Source: a virus
Virus record (IMG/VR): IMGVR_UViG_3300042402_003111
Coordinates: 62,001-126,000 of that record
DNA length: 64,000 nucleotides
Direction: 5' to 3' (one strand)
Within the stretch, counting starts at the first letter, position 1. Each line of letters starts with the position of its first letter. A program made the position numbers and the translations under genes. Below are positions 4,201-61,225 of the stretch, one piece after another. The notes beneath the pieces are model-generated. The model did not search any database. It saw only the letters and a list, made by a program, of their open reading frames with translations, and was not told where the DNA came from.

Positions 4201-6058
4201 TATTTCTATTACACGAAATGCTGATGTAAGTGTTCAAAAATTTAATCCATTTGCTCCTGTAAGAATAACACCTAAAAGTTATAGTGCTTATTTTGATGGT
4301 ACGGGAGATTATGTTGACATATCGAACGTAGATACTGCGTTCGGAGCATCTGCAAATTTTACAATTGAATTTTGGATGTATCCAACTATTATCAATTCAG
4401 CAGTCAAGGCAATCATAGATCCGAGAACCTCTGATACTTCTGCACATCCGTTAATATGGATAGACGCTTCCAATCGACTATACTATTTTACAACCAATGT
4501 AACTAGGATAACAGGAACTACAACACTAACTGCGAATCAGTGGTATCATGCCGCCGTCGTCAGAAATAACGGAACAACTAGGTTATATTTAAATGGTGTC
4601 GAGGAAGGAACACCTTGGGCCGATACAGTTGATTATGTTTCCTCAACAACTTTTAGAATAGGTCAACGATACACTAGTACAGCATTTAACTACGGTGGGT
4701 ATCTTTCTGACCTTCGTATTGTTAAAGGCACAGCGGTTTACACAGGAAACTTTACACCAAGTACTACTCCACTAACGGCAATAGCAGGCACAAGTTTATT
4801 AACATGCCAAAGTAGTCGTTTTATAGACAATAGTACAAATAATTTTACTATAACAGCTAATGGTGATGCAGCTCCGAGAACATTTAACCCATTTGGAAAT
4901 AATATTAGTTATAATGGTGAATATAGTGTTTCTACTGTAGGAGGAAGTTTTTCCTTTGATGGTACTGGAGATTATTTAGATCTACCAAGTAATGCAGCAT
5001 TTACACTTAGTACATTAGATTTTACTATAGAAGGTTATCTGTATCTGATTTCAGGAACTACAGGAACACTTTATGATTCAAGAACAGGCACAACTACAAT
5101 ATCTCCAGTTATATATTTAAGTTCTGGAGCATTAACTTATTTTGCTGGAGCGAATAGAATTACTGGACCTACATTAGTTTCTGGACAATGGCATCACATA
5201 GCAGTGGCACGTAGCGGATCGAGTACAAAATTGTTTTTAAATGGAGTACAAGTAGGATCGACTTATACTGATACCAATAATTATGTGATAGGTCCACCAA
5301 AAATTGGTGCTGGATACAATAATACTAATTTATTAAATGGTTATATTTCTAATTTAAGAGTATTAAAAGGCACAGCGTTATATACATCAAATTTTGTGCC
5401 ACCAACGGCGCCATTAACTGCTATTTCTCATACAGTACTATTATTAAATGGTACACACAGTGGAATTGTTGATTATACATCTAATAATAACATTGAAATC
5501 TTAAATAATACACGACTAGTTAGCAACATTACAAAATATAATAATACTTCATTATTGTTTGATGGTACAGATGATGCTGCGTTTATGCCAAGCAACATAG
5601 TTTTAGATTTTGGAACTGGCGATTTCACTATAGAACTTTGGGTATATTTCAATGCATTGACTTCTAACAGGATAATATTAGATCGTTGGATCACAGGCAA
5701 TGCTAATAGTTGGCAATTATATTGGAGATCAACTGGAACATCTTTAACATTTCTAGTAGGAGCATCAACCGTGTTGTTGCAGGATTCTAATGCATCTCGA
5801 ATCACTACTGGACAATGGTACCATGTGGCAGTTACTAGAGCAAGTGCTACAAATAGAATGTTCATAGACGGTGTACAAGTAGCATCTGCAACAAATAGTA
5901 CATCTTTAACTAGTGCCTTACCTTTGTGCGTAGGTATGCAATATAGTACTAGCACTAATGATTTTAGTGGATACATGGACGACATTAGGATTACTAAAGG
6001 ATATGCGCGATATACAACAAACTTTACGCCGCCTATTGCAGCTTTACAGATTAAATAA
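1265..6058 (+). CDS. Giant adhesin with IPT/TIG, Ig-like and six LamG-like domains
   Basis: 1597 residues. Around residues 55-125 is an IPT/TIG-like fold (IHGAGFSPNATVQLDG), then two putative-Ig repeats (TLPSGVTLSSSGVLSGT near 175 and LPSGISLSGDTISGTP near 260). From about residue 355 to the end are six concanavalin A/LamG-like units. Each opens with a version of YFDGTGDYVDIS, has an FTIEFWMYP strand, a W.HxAVxRxGxxxRLYxNG strand and closes with GYISNLRVxKGTAxYTxNFxPP; they start near residues 357, 578, 788, 1005, 1227 and 1428. LamG folds bind glycans, so a receptor-binding or surface-adhesion role is likely. No signal peptide, as expected for a virion protein. Confidence 0.88.
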   Translation: MYNKGRIGRRTNDSEGLTKLPQHFYETQTPSPTIQSYDVCELGTYVPLDDVALDLAGSQTIVIHGAGFSPNATVQLDGTTINTVTFLDPTRLAFTSIAKASGTYSLLVNNGNGRAALLVPGIVYSGVPTFVSPAAGSIGSFYETNSINETISATSDSAVTYTISAGTLPSGVTLSSSGVLSGTSPVDSGITTYSFTVKATDQEGQDSFRSYSLTINTDVVTWNAPANNSNYELEQTIPIDPITLLATSAAGKSITYSADVLPSGISLSGDTISGTPTVLESISTTLTATANITNRSATRNISWSVVLPGDPFFTVTSLLLSGYKSSSFWIQDSSTNKLTLTYTDARPSSFSPYETQYSAYLDGVDDYIGFPNGTAVQFGTGHFTIECFVFRDPSGPAYPVIFTNTPGDGGSSGEFTCYMVHPAGNNMMYGAGGLYKSGGTAPPANKWSHYALCRDGTSLRVYVDGVRQWEETTGSFFTSSYGLASGTFTIGVRTGNVAQTSAKGYISNFRVTKNECLYTGASFVVPTSKLTAGANTTVLALQSNRFLDTGVNALAVTGYNGTLISNFGKFEETDLITGSGYFDGSADVITVPGNSAFDFGSGNFTLECWIYPNTTAGTQCILDAWNNAPTRFLLRISSGQLQFFANPGTSININHTLPGASTWYHVACVRNGSNFSLYVNGVSVGTPVTNSGTIASSVANWTISRSSETYNGYISNVRIVKGTAVYTAAFTPPTQPLTAITNTSLLTLQNRVSETNTRVLDNSGLDHTVTRFGNATQGSRSPFSLTGWSNYFDGTGDFLSLSNSALTIGTSDFTLEFWIYVELASLPTNATIYDQRAGTNGASVIQPVIELTNVNGYAWYVAAGNRITSGTSAVLLRTWQHVAVSRSSNVTKMFINGVQVGSNYSDTNNYPAGALNIGKSNDGTTQRNHTGYISNLRLVVGTSLYTTNFTPSTTPLEVITNTRLLTCQSTRIIDSSPYNISITRNADVSVQKFNPFAPVRITPKSYSAYFDGTGDYVDISNVDTAFGASANFTIEFWMYPTIINSAVKAIIDPRTSDTSAHPLIWIDASNRLYYFTTNVTRITGTTTLTANQWYHAAVVRNNGTTRLYLNGVEEGTPWADTVDYVSSTTFRIGQRYTSTAFNYGGYLSDLRIVKGTAVYTGNFTPSTTPLTAIAGTSLLTCQSSRFIDNSTNNFTITANGDAAPRTFNPFGNNISYNGEYSVSTVGGSFSFDGTGDYLDLPSNAAFTLSTLDFTIEGYLYLISGTTGTLYDSRTGTTTISPVIYLSSGALTYFAGANRITGPTLVSGQWHHIAVARSGSSTKLFLNGVQVGSTYTDTNNYVIGPPKIGAGYNNTNLLNGYISNLRVLKGTALYTSNFVPPTAPLTAISHTVLLLNGTHSGIVDYTSNNNIEILNNTRLVSNITKYNNTSLLFDGTDDAAFMPSNIVLDFGTGDFTIELWVYFNALTSNRIILDRWITGNANSWQLYWRSTGTSLTFLVGASTVLLQDSNASRITTGQWYHVAVTRASATNRMFIDGVQVASATNSTSLTSALPLCVGMQYSTSTNDFSGYMDDIRITKGYARYTTNFTPPIAALQIK

Positions 6059-32135: not shown

Positions 32136-34472
32136 ATGTCGAACATCACTGTTATAAAAAGAAATGGAAAAAAAGAATCTTTAACAATAGAAAAGTGGCA
32201 GACACAGATCGCCAAAGTATGCAGTGGAATTGCCGATGTTAGTCAAAGTATGATCGAAATTAAAAGTCAACCACATTTCTATGATGGTATTACTACTAAA
32301 GAAATTGACGAAATTACACTAAGAGCCATAGTTGATTTGATTGATATAGAAAGCAATCCAGATTTAGGACATACCAATTATCAATATGTAGCAGGCAAAC
32401 AGAGACTCAGTATGCTACGCAAAGATGTATATGGTGGATACGAGCCTCCTCACCTTTACGAAATCGTAAAGAAAAATGTTGCTACAGGATTGTACACAGA
32501 AGAATTGTTGTCCTGGTATACAGAAGAAGATTGGAACAAAATGAATGATATGATAGATCATTCAAAAGATGAACAATATTCGTATGCTGCTATTGAACAA
32601 CTGATTGAAAAATATCTAGTCAAGAATCGTAGCACCAAGGAAATATATGAAACTCCTCAAGTTAGATATATGGTGGCAGCAGCTACAGTCTTTCATAAAG
32701 AAGAACCCAATCAAGCACGTATGCGATATATTAAAGAATATTATACAGCGGCCAGTGACGGTCTTTTTACTCTCGCTACTCCCGTTCTTGCTGGTCTGGG
32801 AACACCAACCAAGCAATTTAGTAGCTGCGTCCTTATACGCAGCGATGATGACCTTGATAGTATCTTCGCTTCTGGAGAAATGATGGCTAAGTATGCTAGT
32901 AAACGTGCAGGAATTGGATTAGAAATTGGTCGACTACGTCCATTAGGCTCTCCGATTCGCGGTGGCGAAATCATGCACACTGGCATGCTGCCTTTTTTAA
33001 AAAAATGGTTCGCAGATTTAAGGAGTTGCAGTCAAGGTGGAATACGTAATGCTAGTGCTACTGTTTTTTATCCAATTTGGCATCATCAGTTTGATGATCT
33101 TATCGTGCTTAAGAATAATCAAGGCACAGACGAGACCCGAGTCAGACACATGGACTACGGAGTGGTATTGTCTGCTTTCTTCTGGCGCAGATTTAAAAAT
33201 AAAGAATCCATTACTTTCTTTGATCCCAACGAAGTACCAGACCTTTATGAAGCTTTCTACACAAACACGAAACGGTTTGAAGATTTATACATCAAGTACG
33301 AGAAAGTATCTGGTCTGCGCAAGAAAGTTATATCAGCAGAAGAAGTTTTTAAATCTGGAATTTTAAAAGAACGCACAGACACGGGTCGTATCTATCTTGT
33401 GTTTATAGATAATGTGATGAATCAAGGACCATTTGATCCTGAGTATCATACGATATATCAAAGTAACCTATGTTGTGAAATATTGTTGCCCACTAAGGCA
33501 TTTAAAAGATTAGATGACGAAGAAGGACGTATTGCCCTATGCACCCTGGGTTCAATCAACTGGGGTGCCTTTCGTAACCCGGAAGATATGCGACGTGCTT
33601 GTCGCATCTTACAACGTAGTCTATGTAACATACTGGACTATCAAGATTTCTTATCAATTCAGAGTAAACTGAGCAATGACGAAATTCAACCTTTGGGTAT
33701 TGGTGTTACTAATCTTGCTTATTGGCATGCTAAACGAGGTCTTAAATACGGAGAAACCGATGCATTGGGAGAGGTTAAAACCTGGATCGAGCATCAAGCT
33801 TACTACCTAACTGAAGCTACAGTAGAACTAGCCAAAGAAAGAGGCAAGTGTAAAGACAGCGATAAGACTAGATATGGACAAGGTATTTTTCCTTGGGAAC
33901 TACGAGCAGAAGGTGTAAACGAATTAACTAACTTTGCTCCTGAACTTGATTGGGAACCTCTACGTGCTGAAATGAAACAGCATGGTGTTCGTAATGCTAC
34001 ACTAATGGCCATTGCTCCGGTTGAAAGTAGCAGTGTTGTTATAAACAGCACGAACGGTATTGAGATGCCCATGAGCTTAATCAGTGTTAAGGAAAGTAAA
34101 GCAGGTTCGTTTACACAAGTGGTTCCTGAGTATCACAGATTGAAAAACAAATATCAATTAATGTGGGATCAAAGAGATTGTGCAGGATATATTAAAACTG
34201 CCGCAGTGTTAGCCGCCTATGTTGATCAAAGTATTAGTACAAATACTTTTTATAATCCTGCACATTATCAGGATCGCAAAGTGCCTACAACATTAATTGC
34301 AAAAAATTTAATGCAAGCGCATTATTGGGGGATTAAGACCTTCTATTATAGCTTGATTAATAAAACAGGATCTAAGAGTCAAGAAGATCTAGGCGAACCA
34401 AAGATGAACGGGTTCCATGAAATGGATTTAAGCTTGTTAGATGATGCAGACTGTGAGGCTTGTAAGCTGTGA
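32136..34472 (+). CDS. nrdA: Ribonucleoside-diphosphate reductase, class Ia alpha subunit
   Basis: 778 residues, near the usual length. The N-terminus (TVIKRNGKKESLTIEKW) is an ATP-cone-like allosteric domain. FSSCVLIR holds the first redox Cys, NLCCEI the thiyl-radical Cys, and ALCTLGSINWG the second redox Cys; the C-terminal DCEACKL is the Cys pair that passes electrons from glutaredoxin. It reduces ribonucleoside diphosphates with NrdB for phage DNA synthesis. Operon nrdA-sod-nrdB-grx with 4-20 base overlaps. Early-type promoter upstream. Confidence 0.95.
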   Translation: MSNITVIKRNGKKESLTIEKWQTQIAKVCSGIADVSQSMIEIKSQPHFYDGITTKEIDEITLRAIVDLIDIESNPDLGHTNYQYVAGKQRLSMLRKDVYGGYEPPHLYEIVKKNVATGLYTEELLSWYTEEDWNKMNDMIDHSKDEQYSYAAIEQLIEKYLVKNRSTKEIYETPQVRYMVAAATVFHKEEPNQARMRYIKEYYTAASDGLFTLATPVLAGLGTPTKQFSSCVLIRSDDDLDSIFASGEMMAKYASKRAGIGLEIGRLRPLGSPIRGGEIMHTGMLPFLKKWFADLRSCSQGGIRNASATVFYPIWHHQFDDLIVLKNNQGTDETRVRHMDYGVVLSAFFWRRFKNKESITFFDPNEVPDLYEAFYTNTKRFEDLYIKYEKVSGLRKKVISAEEVFKSGILKERTDTGRIYLVFIDNVMNQGPFDPEYHTIYQSNLCCEILLPTKAFKRLDDEEGRIALCTLGSINWGAFRNPEDMRRACRILQRSLCNILDYQDFLSIQSKLSNDEIQPLGIGVTNLAYWHAKRGLKYGETDALGEVKTWIEHQAYYLTEATVELAKERGKCKDSDKTRYGQGIFPWELRAEGVNELTNFAPELDWEPLRAEMKQHGVRNATLMAIAPVESSSVVINSTNGIEMPMSLISVKESKAGSFTQVVPEYHRLKNKYQLMWDQRDCAGYIKTAAVLAAYVDQSISTNTFYNPAHYQDRKVPTTLIAKNLMQAHYWGIKTFYYSLINKTGSKSQEDLGEPKMNGFHEMDLSLLDDADCEACKL

Positions 34473-35023
34473 TGAGTTATGAATTTATAAAAGGATTTAT
34501 TGCAGAAGGCCGTAATGAAAAATTAAGTATTAAACCTTTGCCTTATAAAAAGGACGAACTAAATCCTAGCATAAGTGAAAATACAATTAACTATCATTAC
34601 GAAAAGTTAGCTAAGACCTATGCCGAAAGATATAACAAAGGCGAAGGTGACCCTGTGTTCAATGAAGCAGGAGTATTTTTACACAACATTCTTTTTCAAC
34701 AATATCAAGCACCGAACAACAAAAATAAACCAGAAGGTGCTATAGAAGAATTTATAAACAAACACTATAAATCCTTTGATAAGTTTAAAGAAGAGTTTGA
34801 AAAAACAGCAATGAGTATACAAGGTAGCGGATGGGTATATCTTAGTAAAAGTGGTAAAATAAAAACAATAACAAATCACGAAGTAAAAAAAGACATAGTA
34901 CTATTGATAGACTGGTGGGAGCATTCTTGGGCTCTGGATTACCAAGCTGACAAAAAGAAGTATTTAGAAAACCAATGGAAAATAATTAATTGGAATCATA
35001 TAAATGAGCAAACAACAATATAA
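34472..35023 (+). CDS. sod: Fe/Mn superoxide dismutase with capsid-targeting-like N-terminus
   Basis: 183 residues from the ATG at 34472 (a GTG three bases upstream is also in frame). All four metal ligands are visible: His42 in NYHYEK, His71 in FLHNIL, Asp147 and His151 in IDWWEHSW. Tyr50 (second sphere) is kept, but the usual gateway His four residues after the first ligand is Leu46. It removes superoxide. Before the SOD fold (LPYKKDELNPSI) there is an extra SYEFIKGFIAEGR segment very like the T4 internal-protein signal (QEFIAEA), with a cut site after Glu. It sits between nrdA and nrdB, where it could protect the NrdB radical or be packaged. Confidence 0.88.
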   Translation: MSYEFIKGFIAEGRNEKLSIKPLPYKKDELNPSISENTINYHYEKLAKTYAERYNKGEGDPVFNEAGVFLHNILFQQYQAPNNKNKPEGAIEEFINKHYKSFDKFKEEFEKTAMSIQGSGWVYLSKSGKIKTITNHEVKKDIVLLIDWWEHSWALDYQADKKKYLENQWKIINWNHINEQTTI

Positions 35024-38498: not shown

Positions 38499-38561
38499 AT
38501 GGGAAAGCAACTACGCAAAAGAGCAGCAAAAACTAAGGCAGCAAGTAGGAGAAAACGCTAA
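38499..38561 (+). CDS. Tiny Arg/Lys-rich peptide, 20 aa
   Basis: Begins MGKQLRKRAAK and ends in ASRRKR; half the residues are basic. AAGGAG ribosome site just upstream; the stop overlaps the iscU start (TAATG), which supports real translation. Similar in style to the 23-residue peptide before it, with a shared AKTKA core. Confidence 0.65.
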   Translation: MGKQLRKRAAKTKAASRRKR

Positions 38562-38983
38562 TGTCATATTCTGATCAAGTTATAGATCATTATGAGAATC
38601 CTCGTAATGTCGGCAAACTTGATAAGAACGACCCTACTGTAGGAACAGGATTAGTAGGAGCACCGGCTTGCGGAGATGTTCTGCAATTACAAATTAAAGT
38701 AGAAGATAATATCATCACTGATGCCAAATTCAAGACGTATGGCTGCGGCTCAGCGATTGCAAGTTCGTCGCTTGTTACTACATGGCTCAAAGGTAAAAGT
38801 CTTGATGAAGCGAATGCCATCAAGAATTCGGAAATTGCCGAAGAGCTCGCATTACCACCTGTCAAAATACACTGTTCGATTCTTGCAGAAGATGCAATAA
38901 AAGCAGCTTTATCGGATTATAAATCAAAACATGATTCAATTAACAGAAATAGCAGCCAAGAAAGTACAGCAGCAGTTATCTAA
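38561..38983 (+). CDS. iscU: Fe-S cluster scaffold protein IscU
   Basis: 140 residues. The three cluster Cys are present: Cys37 in APACGDV (with Asp39), Cys62 in YGCGSAIA and Cys105 in KIHCSI. LPPVK at 98-102 is the HscA-recognition motif of IscU. It assembles 2Fe-2S clusters for transfer to carriers. The last 50 bases overlap the A-type carrier gene in another frame, and the C-terminal tail is longer than usual. NifU-type N-terminal domain is the alternative name for the same fold. Confidence 0.94.
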   Translation: MSYSDQVIDHYENPRNVGKLDKNDPTVGTGLVGAPACGDVLQLQIKVEDNIITDAKFKTYGCGSAIASSSLVTTWLKGKSLDEANAIKNSEIAEELALPPVKIHCSILAEDAIKAALSDYKSKHDSINRNSSQESTAAVI

Positions 38984-39251
38984 TCGAGGGCACGGTCTTG
39001 GAATAATGGTAGGAGTAAGAACTACCGGATGTTCAGGACTTGCCTATAAATTAGAATATGTAGACACGCCACACACAGATCAAATTACATACGAAAGCAA
39101 CGGTGTTACTATCTTTGTAAATCCAAAAGACTTACCATATATCGATGGTATGACCATGGATTGGCGACGTCAAGGTCTTAACGAAGGATTTGACTTTATC
39201 AATAACAAAGAAAAGGATCGATGCGGTTGCGGTGAATCTTTTAGAGTTTGA
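38931..39251 (+). CDS. A-type Fe-S carrier (IscA/ErpA family)
   Basis: 106 residues with the three Cys of the family: GCSGLAY near residue 34 and CGCGESF near 97-99. It should accept clusters from IscU and pass them to client enzymes. Clients in this window could be the ferredoxin-like proteins and radical SAM enzymes. Starts inside iscU, so translation is coupled. Confidence 0.92.
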   Translation: MIQLTEIAAKKVQQQLSNRGHGLGIMVGVRTTGCSGLAYKLEYVDTPHTDQITYESNGVTIFVNPKDLPYIDGMTMDWRRQGLNEGFDFINNKEKDRCGCGESFRV

Positions 39252-45342: not shown

Positions 45343-47220
45343 ATGAGCAAAATCATCGGTATCGATTTGGGTACTACTAATAGTTGTGTAGCAATAATTG
45401 AAAACGGTATAAGCAAAGTAATTGAAAATTCAGAAGGTGCTAGAACTACACCTAGTATTGTTGCTTATACTAATGAAGAAATCCTAGTCGGCGCACCAGC
45501 CAAACGTCAAGCAGTAACTAATCCAAAAAATACAATTCATGCATCAAAGCGTCTTATCGGACGTAAATTTAAAGAAGACGCTGTACAAAAAGATATCAAC
45601 TTAATGCCTTACGAGATCATGGAGGCTACTAACGGAGATGCTTGGATACGAGCTAATGGCAAAGAATTGGCTCCTCCACAAGTTTCAGCGGAAGTACTAC
45701 GTAAGATGAAGAAAACCGCAGAAGACTATCTTGGGCAAGAAGTAACACAGGCTGTTATCACTGTACCTGCTTACTTCAACGATAGTCAGCGTCAAGCTAC
45801 TAAAGATGCAGGAAAAATTGCAGGGCTAGAAGTTCTGCGTATTATTAACGAACCAACCGCAGCAGCTCTAGCCTATGGCGTCGATAAAACAGATAAACGT
45901 GATCGAAAAGTTGCTGTATATGATCTAGGTGGCGGTACTTTCGATATCAGCATTATAGAAATCGCTAACGTCGACGGAGATAAACAAATCGAAGTTCTTT
46001 CTACCAACGGCGATACATTCCTTGGCGGCGAAGACTTTGATAATAGAATTATGGATTATCTTGTATCTGAATTTAAGAAAGAGCAAGGTATTGACCTTAG
46101 TAAAGACGTCATGGCACTGCAACGTCTTAAAGAAGCAGCTGAACGTACAAAAATTGAATTGTCCAACAGTTCACAAACTGATGTGAATCTTCCATATATC
46201 ACTGCTGATGCTTCAGGTCCTAAGCATCTAAATCTTAAATTAACTAGAGCAAAATTAGAAAGTTTAGTAGAAGACTTAATTCAAAGAAGTTTAGCACCTT
46301 GTCGTCAAGCAATGCAAGATGCAAAAGTTAGTGCTGCCGATATTGATGAAATTATTCTAGTCGGTGGGCAAACACGTATGCCTAAAGTGCAAGAAGAAGT
46401 TGAAAAACTATTTGGTAAAGCACCACGTAAAGATGTTAATCCAGATGAAGCAGTTGCAGCTGGAGCAGCAGTACAAGGCGCAGTTCTAGGTGGAGATAGA
46501 AAAGACGTTCTGTTATTAGATGTGACTCCACTAAGTCTAGGCATTGAAACAATGGGAGGCATTTTTACTAAACTAATCAGTAAGAATACTACTATACCTA
46601 CAAAACATAGTCAGGTATTTTCTACAGCCGAAGATAATCAGCCTGCGGTAACTATTAAAGTTGCACAAGGTGAACGCGAAATGTTTTCTTACAATAAGTT
46701 GTTAGGAGAATTTAATTTAGAAGGAATCGCTCCTGCACGTAGAGGCATGCCGCAGATTGAAGTGACATTGGATATAGATGCTAATGGTATTATGCACGTG
46801 AGTGCCAAAGATAAGAACACAGGTAAAGAAAATAAAATTACCATTAAAAGCGATAGCGGATTAACTCCAGAAGAAATTGAACGTATGGTAAAGGACGCCG
46901 AAGCCAATGCAGACGAAGATCGTAAACAACGAGAGTTGATAGAAACACGAAATAATGCAGAAGGTATTATACATAACATTCGTAGTGATATGAAAGAAGT
47001 TGAAACTCTTCTTACTGAAGAAGAAAAAACCAAAGTGAATGATGCTTGCAAAGTAGCTGAAGAAGCTTGTGCAGAATCAGACAAGGAAAAAATTAACGAA
47101 TCTATCACTACACTTTTTGAAGTACAACAAATAGTTGCAACTGCAAAAAGTAAAAAGGAATCTTCAAGCGGAACTTCCGAAGATGTTGCAGTAGATGCAG
47201 AATTTAAGGAAACTGCTTAA
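45343..47220 (+). CDS. dnaK: Hsp70 chaperone DnaK, full length
   Basis: 625 residues against 638 in E. coli. DLGTTNSC (8-15) is the phosphate-1 loop, [24 protein letters not shown] and [12 protein letters not shown] flank the ATPase core, [11 protein letters not shown] is phosphate 2 and [10 protein letters not shown] the adenosine loop. The substrate-binding beta domain ([17 protein letters not shown]) and helical lid are both present, and the tail VDAEFKETA matches the usual VDAEF ending. An ATP-driven folding chaperone. No DnaJ or GrpE in the window, so host cofactors are needed. Complete hsp70 genes are rare in phages. Confidence 0.96.
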
Positions 47221-47225
47221 GAACT

Positions 47226-47255
47226 ATATTTGACGCCATTGGGTCAAATATTTTT
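47226..47255 (+). terminator. Terminator after dnaK
   Basis: Stem ATATTTGAC/GTCAAATAT with loop GCCATTGG and a T-run. A weaker TTGACG element lies inside, but its spacing to a -10 is poor. Confidence 0.78.
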
Positions 47256-47285
47256 ATTATCTTGCTTAAATAAAGGAGAAAAGAA

Positions 47286-47735
47286 ATGACAATGAATGGA
47301 ACTTTAACACGTTTTGATACAACGGCCTTGAATAAGGCATTGGTAGGATTTGATAGATTATTTGATACTTTTGAAACAAGGTTTGCAAATCAACTATCAA
47401 CAAATTATCCTCCACATAATATTATAAAAACAGATGATACTCATTATCAAATTGAAATAGCAATTGCAGGTTTCAAGAAAAATGAAATTAGTATCGAAGT
47501 TGAACAAGAGATTCTAACTGTAAAGGGAGAATCAGAAACACCTAATGAAAATACTGTTAAACAGTACTTACATCGTGGACTAAGCAGTAGAAGCTTTGTA
47601 AGAAGTTGGCAACTTGCAGAACACATGGTTGTTAACGGTGCTGAAATCAAAGATGGTATCTTGACTATTAATCTAGAATACATTATTCCAGAAGAAAAGA
47701 AAGCCAGGGTAATTGACATTGTAGAAGTTAAGTAA
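47286..47735 (+). CDS. hsp20: Small heat-shock protein, Hsp20/IbpA type
   Basis: 149 residues. PPHNIIKTDDTHYQIEIAIAGFKKNEISIEVEQEILTVKGE is the start of the alpha-crystallin domain in IbpA-like form, and HRGLSSRSFVRSWQLAEHMVVNGAEIKDGILTINLEY completes it, including the GxLxI-type strand. It keeps unfolded proteins soluble for DnaK. AAGGAG ribosome site. Known from cyanophages too. Confidence 0.93.
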   Translation: MTMNGTLTRFDTTALNKALVGFDRLFDTFETRFANQLSTNYPPHNIIKTDDTHYQIEIAIAGFKKNEISIEVEQEILTVKGESETPNENTVKQYLHRGLSSRSFVRSWQLAEHMVVNGAEIKDGILTINLEYIIPEEKKARVIDIVEVK

Positions 47736-47741
47736 TATAAT
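47713..47741 (+). promoter_or_regulatory. Full-consensus sigma70 promoter of the clpS-bilin operon
   Basis: TTGACA (47713-47718), 17-base spacer, TATAAT (47736-47741). It overlaps the end of hsp20. The transcript would begin near a hairpin at 47744-47764. Confidence 0.9.
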
Positions 47742-47743
47742 AC

Positions 47744-47764
47744 AAGGGGACTTTATGTCCCCTT
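47744..47764 (+). terminator. Hairpin at the 5' end of the clpS mRNA
   Basis: Stem AAGGGGAC/GTCCCCTT, loop TTTAT. It may stop hsp20 read-through or protect the 5' end of the new mRNA; the T-run after it is short. Confidence 0.6.
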
Positions 47765-47786
47765 ATAAACATCACAGGAGTTAAAC

Positions 47787-48092
47787 ATGTCTGTAGAACA
47801 CGACGTAAAAATTGACGAAAAAATCAAACAAAATATACAAGAACCAAAACGTTGGAAAGTGATTTTGTTAAATGACGATTATACTCCAATGGATTTTGTA
47901 ATTTCCGTATTAACTACAATATTTAAACACAGCCAAGATACTGCTAAAGATATTACAATGCAGATACATAATGAAGGAAGTGGAATTGCTGGAGTTTACA
48001 CTTTTGAAATTGCAGAAGTAAAAGCAGTCGAAGCAACTTCAATTTCTAGATCTCAAGGGTTTCCTTTACAAATTAAATTAGAAGAAGAATGA
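47787..48092 (+). CDS. clpS: ClpS, N-end-rule adaptor
   Basis: 101 residues. RWKVILLNDDYTPMDFVISVLTTIFKHSQDTAKDITMQIHNEGSGIAGVYTFEIAEVKA matches ClpS: NDDYTPM forms the pocket for the N-terminal residue and the His of QIHNEG helps to read it. The flexible N-terminal arm is present. ClpS hands proteins with destabilising N-termini to host ClpAP, or diverts ClpA. A phage copy could redirect host proteolysis. First gene of an operon that runs through to the bilin reductase. Confidence 0.93.
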   Translation: MSVEHDVKIDEKIKQNIQEPKRWKVILLNDDYTPMDFVISVLTTIFKHSQDTAKDITMQIHNEGSGIAGVYTFEIAEVKAVEATSISRSQGFPLQIKLEEE

Positions 48093-48631
48093 GTCTACGA
48101 GAAATAACTAAAGATTTGCACTCAGATGCAGAAAGAACAGTATTTGCCAAAAAGCTAGTTACAGGTTCTTTCACTAAAGAAGAATACGCTAACTATCTTT
48201 GGCAAATGGTACTGGTGTATAATGGTATCGAAACTGCGGCTAACAGTCAAGGAATGTTGAAAAATCTTCCTGACATTGAACGAGCACATAAGATTTATCA
48301 AGACTGTATTGAATTAGTAGGGCCTTATCATAATTTAACTTGGTTGCCTGAAACCATTAGCTATTGCAAGTATTTGTTAGATTTAAATTACGATCAAGAA
48401 CGTAGACATTTAATCAAAGCTCATTTATATTGTCGCCATATGGGAGATTTATTTGGTGGGCAAATCATTGCAAAGAAATGTCCAGGTCAAGGTCGATTTT
48501 ATCAATTCAAAGATGCGGAAAATTTAAAAACTGCTATACGTGCTGAATTAACAGACGACCTTGGTGACGAAGCAAAGGTCGCTTTTCAATGGGCTATTAA
48601 GATAATGAAAGCATTGGTTAGAGAAGAATGA
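48089..48631 (+). CDS. ho1: Heme oxygenase (biliverdin-forming)
   Basis: 180 residues. His11 in TKDLHSDAE is the proximal heme ligand; HLYCRHMGDLFGGQIIAKKCPGQGRFYQF carries the distal-helix signature (GDLxGGQ) that opens heme to biliverdin IX-alpha, CO and iron. Slightly shorter than cyanobacterial Ho1. ATGA overlap with clpS. With the bilin reductase downstream it makes a complete heme-to-bilin route, as found in some marine viruses. Confidence 0.93.
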   Translation: MSLREITKDLHSDAERTVFAKKLVTGSFTKEEYANYLWQMVLVYNGIETAANSQGMLKNLPDIERAHKIYQDCIELVGPYHNLTWLPETISYCKYLLDLNYDQERRHLIKAHLYCRHMGDLFGGQIIAKKCPGQGRFYQFKDAENLKTAIRAELTDDLGDEAKVAFQWAIKIMKALVREE

Positions 48632-49380
48632 CCGGATTGGATTTAAATAAAGAATTTCGAGATTATTATTTAAAATTTAATCTTCCTTTACAAATTGTCG
48701 CAATTACAGCGACAATTTTTTTATCTTTTAATATAGTCAAAGTTCTTTTATTTACGATATTTTTTCATATTTTAATTTATTGGGCAGGTATCCAATGTGG
48801 TTCTCATAAATTATTTTCTCATAAAAGTTGGATACCAAAATATAAATGGATCACTTATTCCATTGGCATTATTTCTTGTTTTGGAATCATGGGGGGTCCT
48901 ATACTATGGAGTTTAATGCACAGGTGGCATCATGCACATAGTGATACTGATTTAGATCCACACAGTCCTAAACATGGATACTTACATAGTTATTTTACAT
49001 GGTTTTTAAACATTCCACATGTACCTCTAAGAATAATAAAAGACCATATTTTAGATTACAATTTGATACGTATTGATAGAAATTGTAAAAAAATTGTTTA
49101 CATTACTTTACTTTTTTTAACAGTGCTAGATTACGAAATTGCATTAAGTCTATTACTCGCTATGGTAATCACTTTTCATATAGAAATGAGTGTTAATTGT
49201 TTCGCTCATAAACAATTAGATGGGGAATGGAAAAGTGTTAACTATATAAGTTTAGCATTTATAACAGGAGGCAGCACTCTACATGCAAACCATCATGCAG
49301 ATTCTTCAAATTGGAATTTTAGTAAAAAATGGTTTGAGCTTGATCCCAGTGCATGGATTATAAAATGTTTGAAAAAATAA
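48628..49380 (+). CDS. Membrane fatty-acid desaturase 1
   Basis: 250 residues. Three His boxes of delta-9 acyl desaturases: HKLFSH (residues 60-65), HRWHHAHSDTDLDPHSP, and HANHHADSSNW near the C-terminus, with four hydrophobic helices between them. Diiron enzyme in the inner membrane that puts a double bond in acyl chains. ATGA overlap with ho1. Acyl-CoA/ACP or lipid as substrate cannot be told. Its first His box has Lys where most have Arg. Confidence 0.9.
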   Translation: MTGLDLNKEFRDYYLKFNLPLQIVAITATIFLSFNIVKVLLFTIFFHILIYWAGIQCGSHKLFSHKSWIPKYKWITYSIGIISCFGIMGGPILWSLMHRWHHAHSDTDLDPHSPKHGYLHSYFTWFLNIPHVPLRIIKDHILDYNLIRIDRNCKKIVYITLLFLTVLDYEIALSLLLAMVITFHIEMSVNCFAHKQLDGEWKSVNYISLAFITGGSTLHANHHADSSNWNFSKKWFELDPSAWIIKCLKK

Positions 49381-50150
49381 ATTACTTAGATAAATTTAGA
49401 TTATTTTATTGTTTTAATATTTTAAGTATTCCAGTAGGAATCGTTGTTGCTTTCTATACATCGCTATGGTGGCTTGTACTAGGCATTGTATGGTATCGCA
49501 TAGTAGGCATATTATTTGTATCAATAGGATTACATAGATATTTTACTCATAGAAGTTTTAAAACTGGATATAAAAGACACTTGTTGTTTGCTATAGGATC
49601 CATTATTAGCGGTAACGGTAGTCCAATTGCATTTGCTGCTCAACATACACATCATCATAGACACAGTGATAAAGAGTTAGATTTACATAGCCCTAAAGAT
49701 GGAATATTACATTCATGTTTTTCTTGGTTACTAAATTCTAAAAAATGGTTTTTAGAAGAAAAAGAAATGAAAATTCCCATGTTTATCTTAAAAGATAGGG
49801 TTGTAAATTTTATTCATAAGTATTATTTCGCCTGCTGGTTTTTAATATCAGCAATACTATTTTTAATAGATTGGAAATTGTTCTTGTTTCTTATGCCTTT
49901 CGCAGGAGGACTTAGCATTTTAACCAGCAATATAGTAGTAGGGTACCTAGTGCATATTAAGTTGCCAGGATCATATAAAAGTTTTGATACCAAGGACAAT
50001 AGTTATAATAATAAATGGATTCAGATAATCGAAACAGCAGAAGGGTATCATAATAATCATCATGCAGATCCTTCTAACTATAATTTTGCAAAGAACAAAG
50101 GTGAGTTTGATTTGTGTGCAAAGATAATTGAAAAGTTTTTTAAGGTATAA
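49353..50150 (+). CDS. Membrane fatty-acid desaturase 2
   Basis: 265 residues (ATG at 49365 is an alternative start). His boxes HRYFTHR, HTHHHRHSDKELDLHSP and HNNHHADPSNYNF with four membrane helices. Related to desaturase 1 but clearly distinct, so the pair looks like divergence or separate gains, not a fresh duplication. Overlaps desaturase 1 by 28 bases. Together they may keep the host membrane fluid during infection or in the cold. Confidence 0.9.
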   Translation: MDYKMFEKINYLDKFRLFYCFNILSIPVGIVVAFYTSLWWLVLGIVWYRIVGILFVSIGLHRYFTHRSFKTGYKRHLLFAIGSIISGNGSPIAFAAQHTHHHRHSDKELDLHSPKDGILHSCFSWLLNSKKWFLEEKEMKIPMFILKDRVVNFIHKYYFACWFLISAILFLIDWKLFLFLMPFAGGLSILTSNIVVGYLVHIKLPGSYKSFDTKDNSYNNKWIQIIETAEGYHNNHHADPSNYNFAKNKGEFDLCAKIIEKFFKV

Positions 50151-54287: not shown

Positions 54288-54410
54288 ATGGGAACCGAGC
54301 AACTGTATTTTATAATTGGATTTTTACTCGGATTATTAATAACATTGTGTTTAACAATAGCAGGTGCTATAATATATTACGAGTCTATAGAAAAAAAGGA
54401 AGAAGATTAA
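54288..54410 (+). CDS. Small single-pass membrane protein, 40 aa
   Basis: One membrane helix (LYFIIGFLLGLLITLCLTIAG) followed by a short acidic and basic tail (ESIEKKEED). Five bases after the oxygenase gene. Ends one base before the Bfd-like gene. Function unknown. Confidence 0.62.
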   Translation: MGTEQLYFIIGFLLGLLITLCLTIAGAIIYYESIEKKEED

Positions 54411-54411
54411 A

Positions 54412-54564
54412 ATGGTTGTTTGTGTGTGTCGAAATATAAAAGAATCCGATTACACTAGACAAGAGGATCTTATAGAGCGTATAATGCAAGCAGATCACAA
54501 CTGTGGACAATGTCAAGAATATTGTTCAAAGTTAAAAGAATTGTTGTATGAAGGGTTATACTAA
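54412..54564 (+). CDS. Bfd-like [2Fe-2S] ferredoxin, 50 aa
   Basis: MVVCVCRNIKESD at the start and HNCGQCQEYC further on give C-x-C ... C-x2-C, the cluster motif of bacterioferritin-associated ferredoxin (Bfd) and related Fer2_BFD domains. Expected to hold one 2Fe-2S cluster and pass electrons, perhaps to the bilin reductase or to release iron. AAGGAAG ribosome site. The cluster would be supplied by the phage IscU/IscA. Confidence 0.75.
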   Translation: MVVCVCRNIKESDYTRQEDLIERIMQADHNCGQCQEYCSKLKELLYEGLY

Positions 54565-54589
54565 AGGTAGGAAGATATTGTAGTACAAT

Positions 54590-54643
54590 GCCTAAGAAGA
54601 AAGATCGGACAAGACCCGGGGGCGGTACCCGGCCGGTCCACCA
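54590..54643 (+). ncRNA. ssrA: tmRNA acceptor piece (permuted ssrA)
   Basis: The 3' piece of a two-piece tmRNA, placed first. T-arm: stem CCGGG/CCCGG (54616-54620 with 54628-54632), seven-base loop GGCGGTA. Then acceptor strand CCGGTCC (54633-54639) and ACCA (54640-54643). It pairs fully with GGGCCGG at 54852-54858, including G3-U70, the alanine identity pair. The exact 5' end is not readable. Confidence 0.87.
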
Positions 54644-54655
54644 TAAGGAAGTTTG

Positions 54656-54850
54656 ATGAAGATTTGTGTTAAAACCCGTGACGGAGACATATTGCCTGTA
54701 ATTTATGGCACCAGGTTTACCGAAAAGGATATTTTAGTTCGCACTGAACGAGAAGCAAACCAAGGTAGTTGGATGTTTAAGTTCGTTGGCGGACCAAATG
54801 ATTTTTACACAATGCTTTGTGATGAGCAAGGCGAAGAAGTTTTCTTATGA
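54656..54850 (+). CDS. Protein gene inside the tmRNA intervening segment, 64 aa
   Basis: ATG at 54656 with AAGGAAG eight bases upstream, ending just before the tmRNA coding piece at 54852. Product: MKICVKTRDGDILPVIYGT, then FTEKDILVRTEREANQGSWMFKFVGGPNDFY and LCDEQGEEVFL. Reads like a folded small protein. It fills almost all of the 208-base intervening sequence between the two tmRNA pieces, which RNA processing should remove. No family recognised. A TTG start at 54653 is an alternative. Confidence 0.62.
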   Translation: MKICVKTRDGDILPVIYGTRFTEKDILVRTEREANQGSWMFKFVGGPNDFYTMLCDEQGEEVFL

Positions 54851-54851
54851 T

Positions 54852-55063
54852 GGGCCGGAAATAGTATCGATTGACGAGCAAGTATTCAAAGGATCTACAC
54901 AGTAGGCGATGACTGTCAATCAAGCAAAACTATAGATGCAAACGTATCTACATTCAAGTTCTGGCAGAGCCCAGTTAGCGTAGCCGCTAACGATGAAGCT
55001 TTTGCTTTAGCTGCCTAAAAAACAGCAGAACTTCGGGGTTGACCACCTTGTTACCCAATAGTC
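54852..55063 (+). ncRNA. ssrA: tmRNA coding piece with tag ANDEAFALAA
   Basis: Starts with GGGCCGG, the 5' half of the acceptor stem. The tag frame is GCT AAC GAT GAA GCT TTT GCT TTA GCT GCC TAA (54986-55018), preceded by TAGCC, like the TAGTC before the E. coli resume codon. It rescues stalled ribosomes and marks the unfinished protein for ClpXP-type proteases. A G/C hairpin region follows the tag; the mature 3' end is uncertain. Confidence 0.92.
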
Positions 55064-55064
55064 T

Positions 55065-55090
55065 AAAAGGCACTTCGGTGCCTTTTATTT
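55065..55090 (+). terminator. Terminator after tmRNA
   Basis: Stem AAAAGGCAC/GTGCCTTTT with a stable TTCG tetraloop, T-rich tail. Confidence 0.92.
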
Positions 55091-58786: not shown

Positions 58787-59812
58787 ATGCGAAATCTTAT
58801 CGCAACAGTTTTATTAGCAGTATCCTCTCTAGCATCCGCAGCAGATTTAACCGGAGCAGGTGCTACATTTCCATATCCAATCTACAGTAAATGGGCCGAA
58901 GCATACAAAGCCGCGACTGGTATTGGTTTAAATTATCAATCAATTGGCTCTGGCGGTGGTATCCGTCAAATCAAAGCTAAGATTGTAGACTTTGGTGCTA
59001 GTGACATGCCACTAAAACAAGATGAATTAGACAAAGAAGGTCTAATGCAATTTCCTGCTATTATAGGCGGTGTTGTGCCAATCGTTAACATCGATGGTGT
59101 TGCTGCTGGACAACTTAGACTTACTTCGGACGTTATTGCTGATATCTATATGGGCAAGATTACCAAGTGGGATCATCCTAGTATCACAGCAATTAATCCA
59201 GGACTTAAATTACCTAACGCAAATATCTCTGTGGTTCACCGCAGTGATGGTTCAGGCACAACCTTTATATGGACTAACTGGTTAAGCAAAACTAATCCAG
59301 AATGGGCAGATAAAGTTAAGGATGGTACAGCAGTTAAATGGCCGGTAGGTGTAGGCGGTAAAGGCAATGAAGGTGTAAGTGCTGTAGTTCAACAGTTAAA
59401 AAATAGTATCGGTTATGTAGAATATGCCTATGCTAAACGCAACAAGATTCCACACGCACAAGTCAAAAATCGTGATGGTAACTTTGTACAGCCTAGCGAT
59501 GACACATTCAAGGCCGCAGCAGCCAACGCAGACTGGAACAGTGCTCCAGGCATGTATTTGTTGCTTACAGATCAAAAAGGTAAGGATGCTTGGCCTATCA
59601 CTGGTGCTAGTTTTATCCTTATGCACAAGCAACAAGCTGACGCATTAACGGGTCGTGCAGTTCTTAAATTCTTTGATTGGAGTTACAAGAACGGTGCCAA
59701 GATGAGTGAAGATTTAGAATATGTTCACTTGCCGCAGTCAGTTATCAAATTAGTACAGGATAACTGGAAACGGGATCTTAAAGGTCCGGACAACAATCCA
59801 ATTTGGAAATAA
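58787..59812 (+). CDS. pstS: Phosphate-binding periplasmic protein PstS
   Basis: 341 residues. Signal peptide ends SLASA-ADLTG. GAGATFPYPIYSKW, SIGSGGGIRQIKA, VDFGASDMPL and HRSDGSGTTFIWTNWL are the PstS phosphate-site motifs. It should deliver phosphate to the host PstCAB transporter. Pho-box-like repeat and late motif upstream; porin gene 9 bases downstream. pstS is a known auxiliary gene in marine phages under phosphate stress. Confidence 0.96.
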   Translation: MRNLIATVLLAVSSLASAADLTGAGATFPYPIYSKWAEAYKAATGIGLNYQSIGSGGGIRQIKAKIVDFGASDMPLKQDELDKEGLMQFPAIIGGVVPIVNIDGVAAGQLRLTSDVIADIYMGKITKWDHPSITAINPGLKLPNANISVVHRSDGSGTTFIWTNWLSKTNPEWADKVKDGTAVKWPVGVGGKGNEGVSAVVQQLKNSIGYVEYAYAKRNKIPHAQVKNRDGNFVQPSDDTFKAAAANADWNSAPGMYLLLTDQKGKDAWPITGASFILMHKQQADALTGRAVLKFFDWSYKNGAKMSEDLEYVHLPQSVIKLVQDNWKRDLKGPDNNPIWK

Positions 59813-59821
59813 GGGATAGAC

Positions 59822-61225
59822 ATGAAAAAAATTACGATCATAGCTGCTATGGCCTTGTGCTTTGCAGCACCGGCTGTTGCAGATGAATATAAAGACACAC
59901 TTGATATTCTACTACAAAAAGGTATTATTACTCAACAAGAGTACAACACAAAAATTGAAGCACACGCAGAGCGTTTAGAGAACAAACAGTTTAATGCTGC
60001 TCGTATTGATAAAGATTTGCGTGATAACAACAATTCAAGATTTACAAAGGCTAATGATGGGTCAGTCACTGAAAACGGAATCGGACTTAAAAGTAAAGAT
60101 GGCAACAATACCGTCCAACTTACAGGTAGACTACATATGGACTATCGTCAGTACTCCCCGGATTACGGTACAGGTCAAACCACGGATTCGTATCAAAACA
60201 CCGCTGAAGCACGACGAGCCAGATTTGGAATAAGAGGACAGTTTGCCAAAGATTTCAAATATCAATTGTTAGCAAACTTTGGTGCAAGCGATGGTTTTAG
60301 TTCCACATCAAGTACAGCAGATGAAATGTGGGTTAACTGGGCTGCTAATCCTGAAATGCAATTTCAATTTGGTTTGTTTAAAATGCCTTTCAGTTTAGAA
60401 CAAATGACTAGTTCAAACAATCTAGATTTTATGGAGCGTAGTTTGATTGGTCAAAACGATAGCGAATTAATTCCTGCTAAAGAAACCGGATTCATGCTAC
60501 ACGGTATTCCTAAACCTGGATTAACATACGCTCTAGCATTAAGCAGAGGCAAGAGTAATAAGAGTGCCGAGTTTGATGGCTTTGATTACATTGGTCGTAT
60601 AACCACAAACATTGCTGAACTAACCGGAAGCAAAGCATATACAGCACACTTAGGTGCTGCTTACAGTACAGGCGAAATTAAAAGTGGTGTTATTCCAGTA
60701 AGTGGCAGAACAGAGTCACGTATGCAGTCAGCATGGTTCACCGGGTCCGCCCTTAGCGATGCGACTACAAGAACACGACAGGGACTCGAAGCTGCATTTG
60801 CTTATAATGCTTTTAAGGTACAGGGCGAACAGTTCCAATTCAATTATGATCCAGCAACAGGCAACGATCAGAAAATAAATGGATACTATGTTCAAGCTGT
60901 GTACAACCTAACAGGAGAATCACACGCTTATAAAGATGGCGCATTTGGTTGGATCAAACCAAACAATCCCGTTGACAAAGGTGGTCGTGGTGCTTGGCAA
61001 GTGGGTGTGCGTATGAGTGAGTTTGATGCCAGCGACATATCAGTAGCAACAGGCAAATCTAATCGTGCTACTGCAATGACTTACGGTATCACTTGGTTCT
61101 GTACAGATAATCTACGTTTTATGTTAAATTATGTAGACACAAAGTTTGACAGTCTGGTAGGCAGTTCAGGTAGTCGTGTAAACGGTGACCGTGCTGTAAT
61201 GTTTAGAAGCCAACTTAGTTTTTAA
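59822..61225 (+). CDS. Phosphate-selective porin O/P-like outer-membrane protein
   Basis: 467 residues. Signal peptide ends PAVA-DEYKD. A short coiled coil (DTLDILLQKGIITQQEYNTKIEAHAERLE) comes first, as in OprO/OprP trimer porins; then 16-strand beta-barrel sequence with alternating aromatic strands and a final FRSQLSF ending in Phe, the outer-membrane insertion signal. It should pass phosphate or other anions. With PstS it makes an uptake pair. A porin in a phage is unusual. Confidence 0.9.
   Translation: MKKITIIAAMALCFAAPAVADEYKDTLDILLQKGIITQQEYNTKIEAHAERLENKQFNAARIDKDLRDNNNSRFTKANDGSVTENGIGLKSKDGNNTVQLTGRLHMDYRQYSPDYGTGQTTDSYQNTAEARRARFGIRGQFAKDFKYQLLANFGASDGFSSTSSTADEMWVNWAANPEMQFQFGLFKMPFSLEQMTSSNNLDFMERSLIGQNDSELIPAKETGFMLHGIPKPGLTYALALSRGKSNKSAEFDGFDYIGRITTNIAELTGSKAYTAHLGAAYSTGEIKSGVIPVSGRTESRMQSAWFTGSALSDATTRTRQGLEAAFAYNAFKVQGEQFQFNYDPATGNDQKINGYYVQAVYNLTGESHAYKDGAFGWIKPNNPVDKGGRGAWQVGVRMSEFDASDISVATGKSNRATAMTYGITWFCTDNLRFMLNYVDTKFDSLVGSSGSRVNGDRAVMFRSQLSF

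Follow-up and report, generated by a model that had tools for sequence, protein, structure and literature searches.

Many aquatic phages, judging from their sequences, carry a small protein gene in the spacer that separates the acceptor piece from the coding piece of a two-piece (permuted) tmRNA. Here, we have analysed a stretch of 64,000 nucleotides from an IMG/VR virus record (the window), whose phage is one of them, together with the permuted tmRNAs of other phages. The comparison indicates that a protein gene inside this spacer, or intervening segment (IVS), is a recurrent phage architecture occupied by many unrelated cargo genes, and not a one-off.

That the window holds a phage permuted tmRNA, as an earlier note had proposed from the letters alone, is confirmed by cmscan and by reading of the sequence, which place it on the plus strand at 54579-55063 (Table 1). 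The covariance-model search suggested in that note gave matches above gathering: RF04321 (tmRNA_permuted) scores 103.1 bits against a cut-off of 47 (E 5.4e-19) over 54579-55018 (+), and RF01849 (alpha_tmRNA, the alphaproteobacterial type) scores 62.7 bits against 50, its match reaching to 55067. These two tmRNA families are the only ones that reach gathering in the window, and the beta model RF01850 scores for some other cargo-bearing tmRNAs, e.g. those of loci L053 and L036. CCGGTCC pairs with GGGCCGG (54852-54858) at all seven acceptor positions, G3-U70 included, just as had been claimed. The CCA end is encoded, the acceptor piece lies 5' of the coding piece, and no T-loop group I intron is present in this tmRNA, the T-arm of the acceptor piece being uninterrupted. 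ARAGORN reported 0 genes in the window, and one tmRNA, in L012, among 14 loci with relatives of the 64-residue protein described below. A search for SmpB (PF01668) gave no match in the 165.8-kb phage record, which is possibly a fragment.

The tag had been read as ANDEAFALAA followed by TAA. Its reading frame holds, but the start at 54986 is probably too late: alignment to the covariance model puts the resume codon GCA at 54938, in the consensus resume context AUAGAUGCAAACG, and the frame from there ends in Ala-Ala and a stop, in frame with ANDEAFALAA. The tag is probably 26 residues rather than 10, its length depending on use of the consensus resume codon.

Table 1. Features of the permuted tmRNA and its cargo gene in the window.
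Feature	Position	Strand	Basis
Acceptor piece: T-arm, 3' acceptor strand CCGGTCC (54633-54639), ACCA (54640-54643)	54579..54643	+	RF04321 model positions from 1 on; 7/7 acceptor pairs
Intervening segment (IVS), 208 nt, TAA at start and TTATGAT at end as in the phage family	54644..54851	+	
Shine-Dalgarno (SD) motif AAGGA, within the clamp helix	54645..54649	+	
Cargo gene, 64 codons, ATG (54656) to TGA (54848-54850)	54656..54850	+	Homologues inside IVSs (L002, L003, L004, L028) and in loci without tmRNA over cut-off (L005-L009, L020-L024)
IVS clamp helix, 5' strand, extending the acceptor stem	54640..54656	+	Minimum-energy fold; covariation in 221 distinct end pairs
IVS clamp helix, 3' strand (last codons, stop codon, U-1)	54835..54851	+	Minimum-energy fold; covariation
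tmRNA coding piece, 3' end assumed just before the terminator	54852..55063	+	RF04321 to 55018, RF01849 to 55067
Tag reading frame, probably ANVSTFKFWQSPVSVAANDEAFALAA and stop	54938..55018	+	Resume context aligned by covariance model
Intrinsic-terminator-like hairpin, then TTTTC	55064..55087	+	2 terminator-like sites in a 1-kb stretch against 0.6 expected from shuffles

The 208-base spacer of this tmRNA does hold, as had been noticed, a 64-codon frame that has a ribosome site and stops one base before the coding piece. An IMG/VR protein search with its 64-residue product returned nine loci (L001-L009), of which L001, identical to the window throughout the stretches compared, is not counted as independent. 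The amino-acid identity to the window frame is 97% in L002, 89% in L003 and 73% in L004, and 49 of the 64 residues are identical in a further locus, L028. The earlier note had made its reading depend on conservation of the frame between related permuted tmRNA loci, and all four of these loci have it in the IVS of a permuted tmRNA that passes RF04321. Relatives in L005-L009, and in L020-L024, which were found by alignment-based search, have no tmRNA over cut-off nearby. Nucleotide differences from the window at codon positions 1/2/3 number 1/1/10 in L002, 3/5/13 in L003 and 9/10/23 in L004, and the IVSs of these three loci are 94%, 90% and 80% similar to that of the window, while both tmRNA pieces are less so (66-77%). 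Since the frame is conserved in L002-L004 and L028, each time inside a permuted-tmRNA spacer, it is not a product of chance, and comparison at the sequence level confirms it as a real gene under protein selection. Pfam and PHROGs gave no convincing match for the protein (best E 0.11 and 0.13 among 8 relatives), tblastn found no relative of it in the phage collection, and the AlphaFold2 model has a mean pLDDT of 62.

Just before the tmRNA in the window, at 54412-54564, lies a 50-residue frame, MVVCVCRNIKESD...CGQCQEYC, which from its motif we take to be like a bacterioferritin-associated [2Fe-2S] ferredoxin. On reading of the translations, host-like genes are dense at 34469-35023, 38561-39251, 45343-50150 and 58787-61225, and include those for superoxide dismutase, IscU- and IscA-like Fe-S scaffold proteins, DnaK, Hsp20, ClpS, heme oxygenase, two fatty-acid desaturases, PstS and a phosphate-porin-like protein.

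To collect phage permuted tmRNAs, IMG/VR was scanned with four patterns, two requiring TAAGGA, one TTATGAT and one TAA only, and was also searched with the protein. A finder then looked for a T-arm, TCCNCCA, a fully complementary acceptor strand starting with GG within 1200 nt, and TCGA soon after. It gave 316 hits, 275 of them distinct, and on 3.02 Mb of loci it made 315 hits, against 1 when those loci had been shuffled in 2-base blocks. Three rows were removed, namely L245 with 259 nt (an upstream tRNA gene taken for the acceptor piece), L257 with 969 nt (judged spurious) and L345 with 385 nt (a nested second acceptor piece), leaving at least 272, in which one gene is still counted twice (L037, 65 and 68 nt). 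The clamp statistics, the family count and the figures on exchange, stop position, SD openness and relatives outside IVSs were computed before the three rows were dropped. In the left-border scan with TAAGGA, which returned 32 loci, a coding piece could be fitted in 27, and none fitted in L032, L037, L042, L043 and L047; several protein families without relation to one another are encoded in the IVSs of the 27. In most of the other phage permuted tmRNAs collected, the spacer has a different frame from that of the window, or none. Of 14 cargo loci, 13 reached the RF04321 cut-off, as did 6 of another 7; the two misses, L164 and L097 respectively, both have HNH genes in IVSs longer than 500 nt; L076, whose tmRNA is nearly the same as that of L164 with an IVS of 40 nt, passes with 109 bits.

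Since the search patterns differ in bias, statements on frequency are taken from one subset, U, made up of the distinguishable loci of the TAA-only scan (new ids L175-L267 plus 15 listed overlaps; any beyond the 80 rows of the listing are absent). Its loci were selected for the T-loop pattern and TAA after CCA, and not for an SD or a frame. The subset comprises 97 tmRNAs with a median IVS of 79 nt, 32 of them with IVSs of at least 100 nt. An ATG frame covers at least 60% of the IVS in 22 of 29 distinct representative IVSs of that length, compared with 4/29 on the antisense strand and a mean of 2.69 (maximum 7/29) in dinucleotide shuffles, and an SD lies upstream of the frame in 17 of the 22. 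An SD-like motif in the first 20 nt is seen in 0/37 IVSs shorter than 60 nt, in 3/28 of 60-99 nt and in 26/32 of at least 100 nt.

The 139 spacer frames fall into 68 families, 55 of which have an SD in at least one member. In the other 13 no member has one, and some of these short frames are likely due to chance. The cargo includes a thioredoxin (Pfam 4.1e-21), a DUF2061 protein (Pfam 2.2e-20) and a GNAT acetyltransferase (Pfam 2.1e-6), and a number of families resemble, by eye, single-pass membrane peptides; in one Pfam batch, 9 of 10 cargo proteins had no match over the cut-off. In families with at least two members, the differences at codon positions 1/2/3 add up to 1626/1210/3036 with the clamp strand left out, a sum over overlapping sequence pairs and not a count of independent events. 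Single short frames can arise by chance, and some of the 68 families are indeed single, short and without an SD. That the window frame is itself a chance open stretch in a long spacer is nevertheless extremely improbable given the codon-position bias, the homologues in other contexts, the Pfam domains and the shuffle and antisense controls. We have rejected the chance reading on the codon-position bias and the two controls.

We would like to point out that many otherwise unlike proteins of the window phage share a similar N-terminus, approximately M(R/K)xxE(L/I), a pattern chosen by eye and then scanned (window 15371, 21068, 21472, 24069, 26703, 27704, 50842 and 52789). The same kind of N-terminus is found in the long IVS cargo of L034, L066, L277, L322 and L346. 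It is perhaps a packaging or maturation signal.

The ends of the phage spacers are conserved. TAA starts 271 of 275 IVSs and TGAT ends 234 of 275, counts biased by the searches, three of which demanded TAA and one the TGAT end. Between these borders, IVS positions +4 to +11 pair with -8 to -15 in 1637 of 1768 cells (93%) over 221 distinct end pairs, whereas shifting the register by 1 to 3 leaves 36-59% paired. All eight positions show several pair types and lie above every shuffle that deals partners among sequences; in the smallest subset (U, IVS of at least 100 nt, 33 end pairs), +6 and +11 are not above all shuffled-partner controls. The resulting helix, which we call the clamp, extends the acceptor stem. 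In the minimum-energy fold of the window, CAUAAGGAAGUUU pairs with AAGUUUUCUUAUG, so that the SD and the stop codon are both within the helix, and the two clamp strands with the acceptor co-fold at -25.8 kcal/mol.

How far the clamp covers the ribosome site was estimated by computing the openness of the SD, in folding figures that take no account of ribosomes, proteins or transcription speed. For the 42 families with the SD inside the helix, mean openness is 0.04 in the complete precursor, 0.53 without the last 16 bases and 0.11 in the excised IVS; the same three figures are 0.31, 0.45 and 0.31 for the 12 families whose SD lies after the helix, and 0.01, 0.66 and 0.55 for the window. The predicted stem across a completed spacer would thus often hide the ribosome site of the cargo. 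Of the 31 frames of subset U, 11 have an SD within the helix, 13 have one after it and 7 have none. Most frames have it in or just after the helix, and sequestration within the helix is common, not universal or obligatory. As the SD in the excised IVS of the window has an openness of 0.55, the shut-off need not outlast processing.

We argue, with some confidence, that the two-piece tmRNA with its discarded spacer serves these phages as a slot for a small protein gene, through translation on the nascent RNA, closure of the clamp and then processing. One transcript would hold the acceptor piece, the cargo gene and the coding piece. The ribosome site leaves the polymerase first and would be open while the spacer is being made, so that the cargo could be translated on the nascent RNA. 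Once the 3' strand, with the last codons and the stop, has been made, the clamp would close by means of the gene's own end and initiation would stop. The extended acceptor stem would then allow the tmRNA pieces to be released by tRNA-processing enzymes, presumably RNase P and 3' nucleases; in the window, we expect an RNase P cut at 54851/54852 and trimming to CCA by the 3' nucleases. The cargo need not act in trans-translation; what the slot would offer to a compact phage gene is a transcript with shut-off built in. The maturation gene of MS2 is translated in a kinetic window, and T4 endonuclease genes have a hidden ribosome site. What these cases share with the proposed mechanism is a ribosome site open only before its partner strand exists. 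In the phage tmRNA, closure would come from the end of the gene itself, and tmRNA processing would have the closed form as its substrate.

The earlier note had located the switch elsewhere, suggesting that processing would destroy the mRNA. This does not apply to the window, where both expected cuts, after the CCA (54643) and before G 54852, fall outside the frame, so that the released RNA would keep the ribosome site, the frame and the stop intact. Over 65 families, the frame stops at position -1 in 27 (the window included), inside the IVS in 25 and inside the coding piece in 13, and it is only in these 13, with the stop beyond the start of the coding piece, that processing could cut the message. 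The covarying helix, which pairs the ribosome site with the last codons, is a better candidate for a switch than destruction of the message by processing. A feedback switch could work in those families whose stop lies in the coding piece, since cleavage would then make a nonstop mRNA that is a substrate of the same tmRNA, and cargo would accumulate only when tmRNA maturation or trans-translation is limiting. The comparison case is arfA of E. coli. The 13 families, and the cultured phage Melnitz, whose frame stops 42 bases into the coding piece, would fit such a circuit. Against it, the cut spares the frame in the 27 families that stop at -1 and the 25 that stop inside the IVS, and the mix of end points resembles that of three reading frames running over a fixed border; the feedback switch seems to us unlikely.

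The cargo is evidently exchanged between different tmRNAs and replaced by unrelated genes. In L038 and L039, the IVSs are 99% alike while the acceptor sides are 50% and the coding pieces 56% alike; in L030 and L040, the IVS and the acceptor side are identical and the coding pieces 56% alike. HNH homing endonuclease frames occur in three tmRNAs (L097, L164 and L187), that of L187 matching a PHROG at 6.8e-14 with the Pfam HNH match just under its cut-off. The tmRNA pieces of L076 and L164 are almost the same and their IVSs measure 40 and 517 nt; the shorter one, that of L076, retains the clamp and the last codons of the HNH gene, suggesting that cargo was lost (or gained) while the tmRNA stayed. 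It is conceivable, from these same three observations, that the IVS is a safe harbour for selfish mobile genes, HNH genes included, which enter, recombine between the conserved borders and get lost, the clamp serving tmRNA processing with no role in cargo expression. On the other side, no likeness to endonucleases is seen in most of the 68 families, a part of which was searched in Pfam or PHROGs. Moreover, an SD motif opens the IVS almost only when the IVS is long, and many frames end at or near its border, which makes the cargo look fitted to expression from the tmRNA transcript. We regard the mobile-cassette explanation as possible but doubtful.

Our comparison also bears on how genes may enter the slot proposed above. 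When 47 family representatives were searched against all loci, 24 had relatives outside any IVS, one of them void through the dropped L245 row. Six families have such a relative on the same strand immediately 5' of the acceptor piece, at 59-118 nt before an IVS; this is seen in 13 loci, including that of Melnitz (L406), of which L126, L320 and L348 look like copies of one case. At L345:9752-10260, a 41-codon frame lies between two acceptor pieces with 2 mismatches in 66 bases, and a cargo frame and a single coding piece come next; the arrangement may be an intermediate on the way from upstream gene to IVS cargo. The motif TATAAATA, which we take to be the T4-type late promoter motif, lies within 120 nt before the CCA end in 111 of 272 tmRNAs, in 108 of these at about 70-80 nt, compared with 1 in shuffled copies; none is found in window 54401-54650. 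It occurs inside the IVS in three rows, one being the dropped nested row of L345. In the other two, L097 and L187, it sits 5' of the HNH frame, in the loop of a hairpin, drawn by eye, with the ribosome site of the HNH gene. As a separate observation, the minus strand of L166 has two permuted-tmRNA-like genes 3 kb apart, with CCA ends at 5365 and 8547 on that strand; by eye, the second is without a tag region and runs into a protein gene.

A spacer frame is also found in a cultured phage. The tmRNA of Methylophilales phage Melnitz (MZ577097.1) scores 113 bits and has a 142-nt IVS with a GGAG site and the frame MFKWLSKTRLVVITRDYFRERNRKADAKIPKYLSGTRSVYDGGELGSTGRNRKV, ended by the stop in the coding piece. 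A relative of this frame lies in the IVS of L228, whose tmRNA passes RF04321, and the largest IVS family (14 members) has a relative in gene 85 of Melnitz, which immediately precedes ssrA. The Melnitz record annotates SsrA and lists no CDS inside ssrA. The passages of PMC9004378 that concern it describe this tmRNA, which is like that of the window a phage two-piece tmRNA; the word "intervening" has 0 occurrences in the main text of that paper, and the spacer frame comes from the present analysis. Among isolate phages, blastn with the Melnitz tmRNA piece matched four Melnitz records only, and with the L012 and window pieces gave short, weak matches only. Both phages with a Melnitz-type IVS frame have a glutamine riboswitch (RF01739) after the tmRNA, at L228:778-828 and L406:2107-2155.

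Bacterial permuted tmRNAs (RF04321, RF01849-RF01851) have in common with those of phages the order acceptor piece, spacer, coding piece, the G3-U70 pair, the T-arm and the tag frame. In contrast to the bacterial ones, phage spacers share the TAA...TGAT borders and the covarying clamp, and often hold a gene. The SD-type border (a pattern including TAAGGA) was found in 3 stretches of the genome collection, compared with at least 120 in viral contigs, and the finder recognises two of the 3 as tmRNAs, whose IVSs measure 40 and 48 nt. We examined 40 bacterial tmRNAs, which are not a random sample: 28 came from the best-scoring matches listed (L372 gave none), 10 from among the longest listed, and L365 and L366 through the border pattern. 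Their IVSs measure 10-165 nt; 4 start with TAA and 1 ends with TTATGAT, of which 2 of the TAA starts and the TTATGAT end belong to loci that came in through the phage-like border pattern. The first 20 nt contain no SD-like motif in any of the 5 bacterial IVSs of at least 60 nt. A frame with an ATG, GTG or TTG start covers more than 60% of the IVS in 2 of these 5 (66 of 89 nt in L398 and 56 of 61 nt in L405), neither with an SD-like motif, and these two frames count against the contrast between phages and bacteria. In the class of L362, a Sneathiella MAG, RF04321 is over cut-off in 263 of 289 genomes, and no match spans more than 351 bases among the matches listed. The bacterial permuted tmRNA of L362 itself has a phage-like 40-nt IVS (TAAGGACAG...TTATGAT), which has no cargo.

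The larger architecture of a gene in the spacer appears to be new, as we found it nowhere described. In a full-text literature search, none of the matches listed says, in its title or at the start of its abstract, that a permuted tmRNA IVS holds a protein gene; older publications on these tmRNAs may do so. Extra elements in such an IVS are known from passages of PMC11915505, which report a tRNA-Ala gene ("a unique feature") as well as, within a long IVS, a repeat; the likeness to the present case lies in the added element, which there is a tRNA gene or a repetitive element, and the relevant passages mention no IVS protein gene. The same passages describe the cleavage of permuted tmRNA transcripts by tRNA-processing enzymes. 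They also report group I intron tmRNA genes that carry homing endonuclease genes (36 of 883), where, as in the phages, a protein gene occupies a segment removed from the tmRNA precursor, and for which the HNH cargo is a parallel. There, however, the segment is a self-splicing intron in the T-loop, whereas the phage cargo, mostly unlike endonucleases, uses the natural spacer and no intron. We propose to group such spacers as the phage cargo-slot IVS family, defined by TAA...TGAT borders, the clamp helix, and an SD and frame over most of the IVS, all of which are present in the window.

Taken further, the mechanism could make these transcripts dual-output RNAs, mRNA for an exchangeable cargo at first and tmRNA precursor once the end of the gene pairs with the ribosome site. 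Where the stop lies beyond the cut, the resulting nonstop mRNA would be rescued by the same tmRNA in a self-limiting circuit, and the permuted form may be kept or spread in phages because its spacer can host genes. We put this broader proposal forward tentatively. The permuted tmRNA spacer, treated so far as waste, is here a recurrent site for phage genes, with selection acting both on an RNA helix and on the proteins encoded inside it. Small phage proteins in such spacers can escape annotation, as in cultured Melnitz, and a duplicated acceptor piece, as in L345, is a possible route for genes to enter. The spacer genes may thereby offer a directly testable case of one RNA that serves as mRNA and then as ribosome-rescue RNA.
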